Source of the DNA: an uncultured Nocardioidaceae bacterium
GTDB taxonomy: Bacteria > Actinomycetota > Actinomycetes > Propionibacteriales > Nocardioidaceae
Length of the DNA: 46,323 bases
Direction: 5' to 3'
NCBI GenBank assembly: GCA_902805845.1
Contig: CADCUI010000023.1
Coordinates: 1-46,323, forward strand
In this document: positions 27,427 to 41,772 of the stretch, piece by piece
How positions within the stretch are numbered: the stretch's first letter is position 1
Layout of the letters: each line of letters begins with the position of its first letter
Made by a program: the position numbers and the translations under genes
The notes under the pieces: model-generated
What the model saw: the letters and a program-made list of their open reading frames with translations, nothing else
The model's database searches: none
Told to the model about the DNA's origin: nothing

Positions 27427-28743
27427 TCAGGTGCTGCTCGTCGCCTCGGCCCGCCGGCCCGGCAGCTTGGTGACGAGGGTGAGAGCGACAGCGGCCAACG
27501 TGATGACGCCGATGGTCGTGTACGCCGTGGTGAAGTCCGGGACGTACACGGTCCCGGGAGCGCCATCGGTGATCAAGGCGGAAGCGAGCAGGGGCCCCAC
27601 GACGCCGCCCAGGCTCCAACCGACGAGCATGAGCCCGTAGATGGCTCCGGCGTTCGAGACCCCGAAGTAGTCCCCCGCCGTCGCCGGCATGGTGCCGAAC
27701 CCACCGCCGTAGCAGAGGTAGACGATCGCGGCCAGCACGAAGAAGAGCACCGGGTTGCTCGCGTGCGGCAGCAGCAGCAGGCCGCCGCCTGACAGCCCCA
27801 GCATCACCGCGAACGCCGGCATCCGACCGATGCGGTCCGATGCCGCCGCCCACACGATGCGACCAGCCCCGTTGAAGATCGCGAGCACGCCCACCGCGGT
27901 CGCGGCCAGCGCCACGTTGTAGCCGGCGATGTTCTGGGCGCTCGACTTGGCCTGCGAGATCAGCGAGATGCCGGCGACGACGTTGAGCGTGAGGATCGCC
28001 GTGAGGAGGTACCACTGCGGGGTGCGCAGCGCCTCACCCTGGGTGTAGTCGGCGCCGGCCCCCGAAGCCTCGGCCTTGGTCGCCGGCTCGAAGCCAGGGA
28101 CGGTGTAGCCCGTCGGCGGGTTCCGGAAGACAGAGGCTCCCAGCACCGACATGACGAGGTAGGCGACGCCGAGGGGGATGAAGGCACGTGTCGGCACGTC
28201 GGGGTTGCGCTCGATGAGCCATTGCGCCAGCGGGGCGGTCAGCACGGCGCCGAAGCCGAACCCTCCGACGGCGAGGCCCGTGATGAGTCCACGCTTGTCG
28301 GGGAACCACTTGAGCAGCATCGCGATCGGCACGATGTAGGCGAAGCCGAGACCGAAGCCGGAGATCACGCCGTAGCCCAGGACCAGCAGCCAGAGCTTCC
28401 CCGGCGTGTCCGCAAGCCCGGCCAGCAGCACCCCGAGGCTGTAGACGACGCCGCCGACCAGCGCCACCATCCGCGGCCCCCGACGGTCCTGGATCCGGCC
28501 ACCGAGGTAGGCACCGATGAAGATCATGCCGATGGCGACCTCGAAGGGCAGCGCAGCCTCCACCTTGTTGAGCCCGAACTGCGCCGGGTCGGTCAGCTCA
28601 GCCGAGAAGACGCTCCAGGCGTAGACGGCCCCGATGGAGAACTGCAGCAGCAGGGCACCCCCTACCAGGAGCCATCGCCTTCTGGTCGGGTCGCCGCCCG
28701 TGGATGCCGAGGTGTCGGTGGAGGCGCCGGCCGAGTGCGACAT
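27427..28743 (-). CDS. OFA-family MFS transporter (formate/oxalate type)
   Basis: 438 residues, about 12 transmembrane helices. Start is the ATG giving [10 protein letters not shown]-terminal [17 protein letters not shown] and the A-loop [15 protein letters not shown], then [27 protein letters not shown], are hallmarks of the oxalate:formate antiporter family. It is the last gene of the selD-fdhABC strand, 41 nt after the NrfD subunit, so it probably imports formate or exchanges oxalate for formate to feed the dehydrogenase. Direction and exact substrate are inferred. Confidence 0.85.
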
Positions 28744-28784
28744 GGGAGTGGCTTCCTGGTCCGCCCCGTCCCGATCACGATCCG

Positions 28785-38656: not shown

Positions 38657-39967
38657 GTGCCCGACCCCCGCCGCGCGACTCCTCGCACCGACCAGGTCCT
38701 GGCCGACGACCGGCTGCGGGAGGCGACCGGGCGGCTGGGCGCAGACCTGGTCAAGCAGTCGGTCACGCGGGCCCTTGAACGCTGCCGCACCGGGGAGGTC
38801 GCGCCCGCGGACGTCGCGGATGTTGCCGTGGCCACGCTGCCGGCGTCGGCCACCGAGCTGCGCCGGGTGGTCAACGCGACCGGCGTGGTCGTCCACACCA
38901 ACCTCGGACGGGCGCCGCTGTCCTCCGCCGCGGTGCACGCGTTGGCGGCCGCCGCCGGGTCGACCGACATCGAGCTGGACCTGGACACCGGCCGCCGGGG
39001 CCGCCGGGGCCGTTCGGCGTTGTCGGCCCTGAGCCGCGCCGTACCCGAGGCCGAGGCGACGCACGTGGTCAACAACGGTGCCGCGGCCCTCGCCCTGGTC
39101 GCCTGTGCGCTCGCGAGCGGGCGCGAGGTCGTGGTCGCCCGCGGCGAGCTGGTCGAGATCGGCGACGGCTTCCGGATCCCGGAGCTGCTGGAGTCCGTCG
39201 GCGCCAGGCTGCGCGAGGTCGGCACCACCAACCGGGTGCGGCTCGCCGACTACGCCGAGGCGGTCGATGACCACACCGCCTTCGTGCTCAAGGTGCACCC
39301 CTCGAACTTCGTGGTCCGCGGCTTCACCTCGACGGTCCCCGTCAAGGAGCTGGCCGAGCTGCCCGTGCCGGTCGTCGCCGACATCGGTTCGGGGCTGCTG
39401 CGGCCTCATCCCCGGCTCCCCGACGAGCCCAGTGCCGCCGGCACCCTCGCCGCCGGAGCCGCCCTCGTGACCGCCTCCGGCGACAAGCTGCTCGGTGGCC
39501 CGCAGTGCGGGTTGCTGCTGGGGCGCGCCGCGCTGGTGGAGCGGCTGCGACGCCATCCGGTCGCCCGCGCGCTGCGGGTCGACAAGCTGACCCTCGCCGC
39601 CCTGGAGGCGACGCTCACCGGCCCTCCGGCGCCGGTGGTGCGAGCCCTCGAGGCATCCGCCGCGGAGCTGCTGAGCCGCGCCGAGCGGATCACCGCCGCG
39701 CTCGTCGACGTCGGCGCCGAGACCGTCCTGTCGGAGGCGGCCGTCGGGGGCGGCGGAGCGCCGGAGGTGACCCTGCCGAGTGCCGCCGTGGCGTTGCCGC
39801 CCGGGCTGGCACGTCCTCTGCGGCTCGGCGACCCCGCGGTCGTCGGACGCGTGGAGCACGGCCGGCTCCTCCTCGACCTCGTCGCGGTGCCGCCCGAGGA
39901 GGACGAGCTCCTGGTGCACGCCGTACGCCGGCAGGCCGGCCCGACCCAGGGCTCCCCGTGCACGTGA
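38657..39967 (+). CDS. selA: L-seryl-tRNA(Sec) selenium transferase SelA
   Basis: 436 residues from a GTG. PLP-dependent enzyme that converts Ser-tRNA(Sec) to Sec-tRNA(Sec) using selenophosphate. Motifs: VVNATGVVVHTNLGRAPLS, NNGAAALALVACALASGREV, EIGDGFRIPELLESVGARLREVGTTNR, DIGSGLL, and SGDKLLGGPQCG containing the PLP lysine. Length matches the family (about 460). The stop overlaps selB by 10 nt, so both are translated together. Confidence 0.95.
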   Translation: MPDPRRATPRTDQVLADDRLREATGRLGADLVKQSVTRALERCRTGEVAPADVADVAVATLPASATELRRVVNATGVVVHTNLGRAPLSSAAVHALAAAAGSTDIELDLDTGRRGRRGRSALSALSRAVPEAEATHVVNNGAAALALVACALASGREVVVARGELVEIGDGFRIPELLESVGARLREVGTTNRVRLADYAEAVDDHTAFVLKVHPSNFVVRGFTSTVPVKELAELPVPVVADIGSGLLRPHPRLPDEPSAAGTLAAGAALVTASGDKLLGGPQCGLLLGRAALVERLRRHPVARALRVDKLTLAALEATLTGPPAPVVRALEASAAELLSRAERITAALVDVGAETVLSEAAVGGGGAPEVTLPSAAVALPPGLARPLRLGDPAVVGRVEHGRLLLDLVAVPPEEDELLVHAVRRQAGPTQGSPCT

Positions 39968-41772
39968 TCGCGACGGCGGGCCACGTCGACCACGGCAAGA
40001 GCACGCTGGTGAAGGCACTCACCGGGAGCGAGCCCGATCGGCTCGCCGAGGAGCGCGCGCGGGGGCTCTCGATCGAGCTCGGCTACGTGTGGACCTCCTT
40101 GCCCCCCGTGGGCGACGTCGCCTTCGTCGACGTGCCCGGCCACGAGCGGTTCGTGCCCACGATGCTGTCCGGTGTCGGGCCGGTGCCGGCGGTGCTCCTC
40201 GTCGTCGCCGCCGACGACCCCTGGATGCCCCAGGCCGCGGAGCACCTCGCGGCGCTCGAGGCCCTCGGAGTGCGTCACGCGGTGGTGGCCGTCAACCGCA
40301 GCGACCTCGCCGACCCCTCGGCCATGGTCGAGAGGGCCGGACGGGAGGTCGACGGCACGGGGCTCGCCGGAGCCCGCGTCGTCCCGGTGAGCGCCCGGAC
40401 CGGGGCCGGCCTGGACGACCTGCGCCGGGCTCTCGTCGACCTGGTCGCCGGGCTGCCGACGCCGGAACCCGCTGCCGACGTGCGGCTGTGGGTCGACCGC
40501 TGCTTCACCGTCCGCGGCGCCGGCACCGTCGTGACCGGCACCCTCCCCGCCGGCCGGATCGCCGTGGGCGACACGCTGGCCGCCGGGTCGAGCAGCCTGC
40601 GGGTGCGCGGGCTGCAGTCGCTCGGCAGACCGGTCACCGCGGCCGCGGGGGTCGCGCGGGTGGCCGTCAACGTCGCAGGCGAGGACCGTTCCGAGCTCGA
40701 CCGCCACAGTGTCCTGGTCACCCCCGGAGCCTGGCGGTTCACCGACCGGGTCGACGTGCGGATCCGGGTCGGTGACCGAGCGCCCGCGGGTCGGCCACCC
40801 CGGCGGCCGGTCCTCCACGTGGGCGCGGCCGCGGTCGCGGCGTACCTCCGGCCACTGTCCGACGACCTCGTGCGACTGACCCTCGACCGGCCGTTGCCGC
40901 TGCGGATCGGGGACCGCGCACTGCTGCGCGACCCGGGCAGCCGGCGGCTGTGGGGGCTGACCGTCCTGGACCCCGCCCCGCCCGCGTTGGGCCGACGCGG
41001 CGCCTCCCGGGCGCGCGCGGCGGCGCTGGCCGCTCACGAGGGGGAGGCCGACGCGGCGGCCGAGATCGAGCGACGGGGGCTGGTCCACCTGTCGCTGCTG
41101 CGCCAGCTCGGCGTCCCCGTCGCCGACACCCTCCGGTCCCAGGCGACCGCGGACGGCTGGCTCCTCGCCGGCCGGGAGGCGGAGAGGCTGCGGCCCGAGC
41201 TGGCGGCGCTGGTGCGCAGCCACGACGCCTCGGGGTCGCTCACGCCCGGGATCCCCAGGGCTGCGCTCTCCGAGCAGCTCGGCCTTCCCTCCGCCGAGCT
41301 GGTCTCACTCCTCGTCGCCCCGCCGCTGCGCGAGGTCGGGGGGCGGATCACCGCCGTGCCGGAACGGTCGGCGACCGGGCTCCCGGAAGGGCTGGAGCGT
41401 GCCGTCGCGGCGGTCGAGGCACAGCTGCGGGAGGAACCGTTCGCCGCTCCCACCGCCGAGCGGCTCTCCGCCCTCGGCCTGGATGCCAGGGCGGTCGCGG
41501 TGGCCGGCCGCGCCGGTCGGCTGTTGCACCTGGGCAGCGGCGTCGTGCTGCTGCCGGGCGCGGACCGCCGGGCGGTGGAGTCGCTGCGCCAGCTGGGGCA
41601 GCCCTTCACGACGAGCGAGGCGCGGAGCCTGTTGGGCACCACGCGGCGGGTGGTGCTGCCGTTGCTGCAGCACCTCGACCGGCAGGGCAGCACCCGACGC
41701 CACCCCGACGACCGTCGCTCCGTGGTCGGCTCAGGTCACCAGCCGGCGGGAAGCGGTCGGCCCTCGGAGTAG
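39958..41772 (+). CDS. selB: Selenocysteine-specific elongation factor SelB
   Basis: 604 residues; GTG start within the end of selA. Delivers Sec-tRNA to ribosomes stalled at UGA upstream of a SECIS hairpin. G1 is [10 protein letters not shown]2 region [13 protein letters not shown]3 DVPGHERF, and G4 VNRSD, a change from NKxD to NRSD. EF-Tu-like barrels follow ([15 protein letters not shown]). The last about 230 residues ([21 protein letters not shown] onward) are the winged-helix repeats that bind SECIS. The 3' end overlaps the convergent guaB1 gene by 37 nt. Confidence 0.95.

Follow-up and report, generated by a model that had tools for sequence, protein, structure and literature searches.

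Clustering of selenocysteine (Sec) genes with a formate dehydrogenase (FDH) gene, and transfer of such loci, are known. In bacteria with a single selenoprotein, selA, selB and selC cluster with fdhA, and transfer of the cluster has been proposed for Pseudomonadales (Zhang et al., 2006; PMC1794560). Among actinobacteria, Arthrobacter is listed as having received the Sec trait from Microlunatus and from Nakamurella (Peng et al., 2016; PMC5029168, Table 2). A region of Corynebacterium aurimucosum contains fdnG, fdxH, selD, selA, selB and selC (PMC2830990), and the FDH1 cluster of Actinomycetospora chiangmaiensis comprises FdhA1, FdhB1, FdhC1, SelA and SelB, with formate removal being selenium-dependent (PMC7176365). 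Here we describe a locus of this kind, hereafter the block, at positions 27427-41772 of a 46,323-nucleotide stretch of DNA (the window; contig CADCUI010000023.1 of assembly GCA_902805845.1) from an uncultured Nocardioidaceae bacterium, together with its versions in the family.

The block resembles the loci of PMC1794560 in that the Sec genes lie beside the sole selenoprotein gene, fdhA. However, that paper deals with one transfer between proteobacterial groups in which selD was judged independent, whereas here distinct versions of the block, with selD among their genes, appear to have been exchanged repeatedly inside a single family of actinobacteria. In the PMC5029168 cases, too, selD and fdhA are close by in most of the donors and recipients; that paper calls such transfers very rare, whereas at least five label changes were found here among 33 well-assembled genomes of one family. 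The C. aurimucosum region has the same clustered gene set and a UGA within the FDH gene, but it belongs to another genus, and its transfer is not addressed in the accessible text of PMC2830990. For the A. chiangmaiensis FDH1 cluster, selD is unlisted in the corresponding part of PMC7176365, and the genome has three Sec-FDHs. A literature search on Nocardioides, selenocysteine and formate dehydrogenase found no paper and no title on Nocardioidaceae; exchange of versions within a family therefore seems unreported within the searchable literature, although the kind of event is known. We consider, with a probability of about 0.8, that the block is a complete one-enzyme Sec locus whose versions have largely been inherited together and, when set against the species tree, have been swapped, gained or lost on several occasions.

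The block carries a complete set of Sec genes and one FDH

Library scans were performed with Pfam and with NCBIfam/TIGRFAM models at their curated cut-offs, and tRNAs were sought by ARAGORN and Rfam RF01852. A preliminary description of this DNA had placed selD, tRNA-Sec, selA, selB and a Sec FDH with iron-sulphur (Fe-S) and NrfD subunits within the block, and all of these Sec parts were located there, the Sec genes and FdhA scoring over their cut-offs (Table 1). The minus strand carries a major facilitator superfamily (MFS) gene, fdhC (NrfD-type), fdhB (4Fe-4S), fdhA and selD, and the plus strand carries tRNA-Sec, selA and selB, the last two overlapping by 10 bases provided that the GTG start of selB is correct. 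The assembly with the window (G000; other G-numbers are compared genomes) comprises 3.28 Mb in 91 contigs, the window being contig 23. In G000 there was no match to selU and no other gene over the FDH-alpha cut-off of TIGR01591, although one contig ends in a truncated relative of 350 bits. Elsewhere in the assembly an FdhD-like gene scored under its cut-off (118 versus 140.9). An island marked by base composition was rejected, since the G+C content of the block in 2-kb windows (0.68-0.77) is like that elsewhere in the window (0.67-0.76).

FdhA scored 1930.5 bits against NF041513 (formate_DH_Act; cut-off 1400), and 1949.6 in the genome search, and 937.5 bits against the FDH-N alpha model TIGR01553 (cut-off 814.2); among solved structures, the chain closest to it in sequence is 1kqf_A of E. 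coli FDH-N. An alpha subunit over the TIGR01553 cut-off with adjoining Fe-S and NrfD partners is in line with an FDH-N type complex, although fdhB scored under the cut-off of the FDH-beta model TIGR01582 (174.8 versus 334.7). E. coli FdnG carries a twin-arginine export signal. No such signal was found in the first 40 residues of FdhA when these were read by eye, with no signal predictor, and the enzyme was therefore filed under NF041513 rather than FDH-N; its active site is thus likely to be cytoplasmic.

The fdhA frame contains one in-frame TGA, followed after 12 bases by a candidate apical hairpin of a Sec insertion sequence (SECIS). A motif search found 108 Sec sequences, 85 of them distinct, in which we compared 48 bases from the Sec codon onwards, so that the counts cover only relatives matching the motif used to locate the Sec site. 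The six pairs of the apical helix are kept in 84-85 of the 85 distinct sequences, and the third and sixth pairs show changes on both sides, whereas the lower stem of the predicted fold is unconserved, several of its pairs failing in many sequences. In six relatives the Sec site is TGC or TGT, and in these cysteine (Cys) forms 3-5 of the six apical pairs remain, which is a small difference. With a z of -0.81, the folding energy is not unusual for this G+C content and was dropped as evidence, so the argument for a SECIS rests on the conserved pairing. We take the GGUCU loop to resemble that of the E. coli fdhF SECIS.

Given the gene content and the conserved hairpin, the UGA is probably decoded as Sec according to the established selA/B/C/D scheme. 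SelD would make selenophosphate, SelA would turn Ser-tRNA-Sec into Sec-tRNA-Sec, and SelB would deliver the latter to the single fdhA UGA, held by the hairpin just past it. Judged likewise from their families, FdhA, FdhB and the NrfD-type subunit would oxidise formate and pass electrons towards the quinone pool, and it is plausible that the block adds formate oxidation to its host.

The locus exists in divergent versions with a patchy distribution

Comparison of FdhA with that of the window showed 31 rows at 80-100% identity (type I) and 22 rows below this, at 60-68%. The latter include the Cys form of G080, the second copy of G067 and G031. Type I and type II FdhA are about 67% identical. Gene order follows the same division: selD lies between selA and fdh in 25/25 type I loci holding all parts, and beyond fdh in 15/15 type II loci, while G031, a third lineage, has its own order. 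The Nocardioidaceae block therefore exists in at least three divergent versions, and the data suggest that gene order is enough to tell which version a Sec-FDH locus of this family belongs to. Both types were found in 5 of 13 genera.

The preliminary description held that Sec use is patchy in actinobacteria, and this was borne out. In Nocardioidaceae, selA exceeded the cut-off in 57 of 197 genomes and had no match at E 0.001 in 128, and FDH exceeded the cut-off in 49; in the class, FDH did so in 107 of 394 genomes, some with Cys forms. A usable FdhA row was obtained from 50 of the 57 genomes with a SelA row. The other seven are all fragmented: four have FdhA fragments at contig ends (G009, G042, G059 and G100), G003 has fdhB/fdhC beside tRNA-Sec at a contig start, and in G010 and G036 no FdhA was found. 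Of the 49 genomes exceeding the FDH cut-off, G067 is the only one to have FDH in two places, neither of type I. Its second FDH (L126, G067:C174:32823-36041) is a divergent Sec copy that groups with Streptomyces and Cys forms, and there are no sel genes in the stretch fetched around it. G080, a genome without a selA match, has a Cys (TGC) FDH (L124, G080:C1:2843071-2846256) that groups with forms from Nocardiopsis and Nonomuraea, likewise Cys.

Sec gene trees match FDH type better than species

A species tree was built from rpoB and gyrB for 69 genomes, 48 rows of which were labelled type I or II; the G000 assembly is without rpoB, so that its placement rests on gyrB. A well-assembled subset, with no more than 50 contigs per genome, comprised 33 genomes (24 type I and 9 type II), leaving out G031 and 24 genomes of at least 60 contigs, G000 among them; the list of fragmented genomes was drawn up by hand once the first trees had been inspected. 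G031 was labelled II in the 48-row counts and excluded from the 33-genome count. Rows under 40% filled were dropped from the family gene trees and those under 50% from the wider trees, G002 was dropped from the gene-tree tests because it forms extremely long branches in SelA and SelB, and G187 was dropped from the wider tree with named relatives.

Mapped onto the species tree, the type labels of the 48 rows require 10 changes, compared with 1 on the FdhA tree, 4 on SelA, 2 on SelB and 3 on SelD. In the 33-genome subset they need 5 changes on the species tree versus 1 on each of the four gene trees. The species data rejected type I as a clade (P value of the approximately unbiased test, p-AU, 1.2e-93), and FdhA rejected the host genus as a clade (p-AU 1.9e-72). 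Distances gave a similar picture. The partial rank correlation with FdhA distance, given gyrB, was 0.50 for SelA, 0.55 for SelB and 0.47 for SelD, and 0 of 500 permutations reached these values. Among type I rows, FdhA distance barely tracks gyrB (rank r 0.09). These results show that the Sec genes follow FDH type more than species, the linked genes sharing a history that conflicts with the species tree, as expected of a horizontally exchanged block. With FdhA removed, SelA and SelD still track gyrB (partial rank r 0.38 and 0.43, with 0.10 for SelB), and vertical descent therefore leaves a mark on both. Support inside the SelA and SelD trees is weak, 14 of 54 inner branches being starred for SelA and 9 of 46 for SelD.

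Of 80 named loci, only those over an identity limit entered the wider trees, giving 54 named or metagenome-assembled rows for FdhA and 31 rows for SelA. Type II FdhA groups with Geodermatophilaceae and a Streptomyces (support 94), and the nearest named relatives of type I by identity are Georgenia and Micromonosporaceae (73-79%). FdhA and SelA of the single-contig genome G031 both group with Arthrobacter, Gordonia and Mycolicibacter, a group that also holds Corynebacterium; its position in the wider FdhA tree was taken from group counts. Nocardioidaceae FdhA as one clade was rejected (p-AU 8.4e-57), and SelA of types I and II in the family is mostly close together. In the SelA tree, Nocardioides sp. 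zg-1308 pairs with G163, which is near-identical to G187. Georgenia ruanii SelA falls among Nocardioidaceae type I rows with weak support; this species was dropped as a clear recipient from Nocardioidaceae, as 30 type I FdhA rows of the family group without it (support 89).

Other genes of the block and Sec sites read as TAG

The coordinates of the features are given in Table 1. The gene called a formate/oxalate transporter in the preliminary description has to be renamed: it passes the L-lactate MFS model NF049980 (411 bits, cut-off 320) and fails the oxalate/formate (OFA) models TIGR00890 (231 versus 374.85) and TIGR04259 (154 versus 335). Among the loci compared, the MFS gene is present in 19 blocks, every one of type I.

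Table 1. Features of the block and its neighbour in the window
Feature	Position	Strand	Evidence or remark
MFS transporter, best called L-lactate/monocarboxylate (SfMCT-like)	27427..28743	-	NF049980; start from simple gene model
fdhC, NrfD-type membrane subunit	28785..29834	-	PF03916, 61.8 bits
fdhB, 4Fe-4S electron-transfer subunit	29831..30787	-	Fer4_11, 73.7 bits, and other Fer4 matches
fdhA, Sec formate dehydrogenase catalytic subunit, 1106 residues including Sec	30789..34109	-	NF041513, TIGR01553; frame from ATG at 34109 to 30789, single in-frame TGA
Apical SECIS hairpin (putative) GUCCCC-GGUCU-GGGGAC, 12 bases past UGA	33517..33533	-	
In-frame UGA, taken as Sec codon	33546..33548	-	
selD, selenide water dikinase, GCACK, without Sec codon	34142..35146	-	TIGR00476, 383 bits (cut-off 125)
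selC, tRNA-Sec, anticodon TCA	35213..35307	+	ARAGORN; RF01852, 78.3 bits (cut-off 47)
Metallophosphoesterase-like membrane protein	35311..37092	-	GDHD and GHLHD motifs, read by eye
nhaA, Na+/H+ antiporter, outside the Sec trait	37242..38576	+	PF06965, 446 bits
selA, Sec synthase	38645..39967	+	TIGR00474, 415 bits (cut-off 267.9)
selB, Sec-specific elongation factor	39958..41772	+	TIGR00475, 257 bits (cut-off 242.25); SelB winged helix present
Inosine-5'-monophosphate dehydrogenase (IMPDH)-family gene, chromosomal neighbour outside the block	41736..43175	-	PF00478, 330.5 bits

Two genes between tRNA-Sec and selA, unlisted in the preliminary description, take up 3.3 kb of the block. The metallophosphoesterase-like protein has no Pfam or NCBIfam match; this family occupies the gap from tRNA-Sec to selA in the window and in two further species of the genus, G050 and G058 (L076:9323-10996 and L089:9277-10929), on the strand opposite to selA in the window and on the same strand in the other two. 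Among the loci compared, nhaA was found at the block in the window only. The insert between tRNA-Sec and selA consists of about 23 kb of other genes in G050 and about 7 kb in G058. In the window selB converges on the IMPDH-family gene, and their 3' ends share 37 bases (41736-41772); extra genes separate the two in G050 and G058, unlike the window.

The Sec site of the type I FdhA of G115 (L125, G115:C80) reads TAG, 35 bases from a contig end. The sole tRNA-Sec over the cut-off in this genome (L079/L371) has anticodon TCA, no Sec tRNA with a CUA anticodon was found among the matches whose loci were checked, and a change from TGA to TAG requires two base changes; the TAG is either a sequence error or unexplained recoding. 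TAG was also observed at the Sec site of three Geodermatophilaceae loci (L299, L305 and L345, from Modestobacter, Blastococcus and Geodermatophilus), and G550 has one TAG inside its FDH and a tRNA over the tRNA-Sec cut-off with anticodon CTA. Sec codons other than UGA have already been described (PMC10778597).

Discussion

The preliminary description suggested that the block may be a transferable unit. In the evolutionary sense this stands: it had named gene trees agreeing with the species tree, together with constant presence, as the opposite outcome, whereas type I as a clade was rejected by the species data and presence is patchy. In the sense of a mobile element it does not, as no mobility gene was seen in the parts scanned and the block appears inherited in the host genus. 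FDH, selD, selA and selB would mostly have been inherited together, each version keeping its own gene order in varied neighbourhoods, and, when compared with the species tree, versions would several times have replaced one another or been gained or lost. Most likely, pieces of about 10 kb were occasionally taken up whole and integrated by recombination of the host, given that the block was not seen to be accompanied by a mobility gene. A stronger form of this proposal, to which we give an even chance, is that tRNA-Sec, SelB, SelA, selD and the client enzyme circulate in Nocardioidaceae as competing haplotypes, replacement of whole blocks uncoupling the trait from descent.

Several results weigh against repeated exchange of whole blocks. 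The host genus as a clade was rejected weakly by SelA (p-AU 0.011) and SelB (p-AU 0.0048) and was not rejected by SelD (p-AU 0.099), and within type II, FdhA distance tracks gyrB fairly well (rank r 0.65), as expected of vertical descent. G027 is a mosaic, with a type II FDH, SelA and SelB nearest to type I or unassigned rows and SelD nearest to a type I row; some fragmented genomes look mosaic in this way, so the block may not always move whole. G027 (type II; L122:11159-13218) and G098 (type I; L112), from different genera, have JmjC-like and sucrase/ferredoxin-like flank genes in common, hinting at exchange in place or at a preferred neighbourhood. Neither a donor, nor a recent transfer, nor an integration scar was seen. 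Finally, three species of the host genus (G000, G050 and G058) hold type I beside the same IMPDH gene, and the block in this genus is therefore most simply inherited rather than a fresh arrival; a recent arrival in the host was rejected on the same ground.

The comparison of flanks proposed in the preliminary description thus found a conserved neighbour in these three species, whereas across the family there were only small flank clusters. Among 49 genomes, at least two flank genes in common were found only within eight small clusters, and 23 genomes share none at that level; the flanks compared were short, some ended by contig ends, and a few genomes had longer ones. Within the host genus, the one-contig genome G023 has the same IMPDH neighbourhood without the block and has neither a selA match nor this FDH (tRNA-Sec was not sought), and in G040, likewise a single contig, a type II block lies at 3.11 Mb, away from the IMPDH gene at 4.20 Mb. 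This pair argues against vertical inheritance with repeated loss in which the tree conflicts are noise or errors of metagenome binning. In its favour, 24 of the genomes used, G000 among them, have at least 60 contigs, and the SelA and SelD trees are weakly supported inside; yet the pattern persists in the 33 genomes of at most 50 contigs (5 versus 1 changes), and this explanation is strongly disfavoured.

It is also conceivable, if unlikely, that both versions are duplicates that were present in the family ancestor and were lost differentially, without horizontal transfer. The closeness of type I and type II SelA within the family and the frequent absence of selA (128/197 genomes) are in line with this, and fragmented assemblies could partly explain the lack of double carriers. 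However, the only genome of 49 with two FDH places has no type I copy, a single clade of Nocardioidaceae FdhA was rejected (p-AU 8.4e-57), and the nearest outsiders differ, being Georgenia and Micromonosporaceae for type I and Geodermatophilaceae and a Streptomyces for type II. A self-mobile genomic island integrating at tRNA-Sec or elsewhere is less probable still. In its favour, inserts of differing length between tRNA-Sec and selA occur in several genomes, the window included; but no integrase, transposase or conjugation family was found among the window open reading frames scanned, the flanks being scanned in part, nor any mobility family among 20 scanned insert and flank proteins of relatives. 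A hotspot for mobile-element insertion behind tRNA-Sec was accordingly dropped, apart from its place in this weak rival, as the scanned inserts consist of genes without a match or of ordinary metabolic, transport or repair genes.

Exchange of versions of a complete Sec locus thus remains our preferred reading. It is a known kind of event, unusually clear here inside one bacterial family, and it provides a dense case in which an extension of the genetic code has a single history in common with its client enzyme but not with the species. The patchiness of Sec use becomes testable by comparing close relatives that carry either version or none. If replacement of competing haplotypes is true, it would contradict the literature, in which transfer of the complete Sec trait is regarded as very rare.

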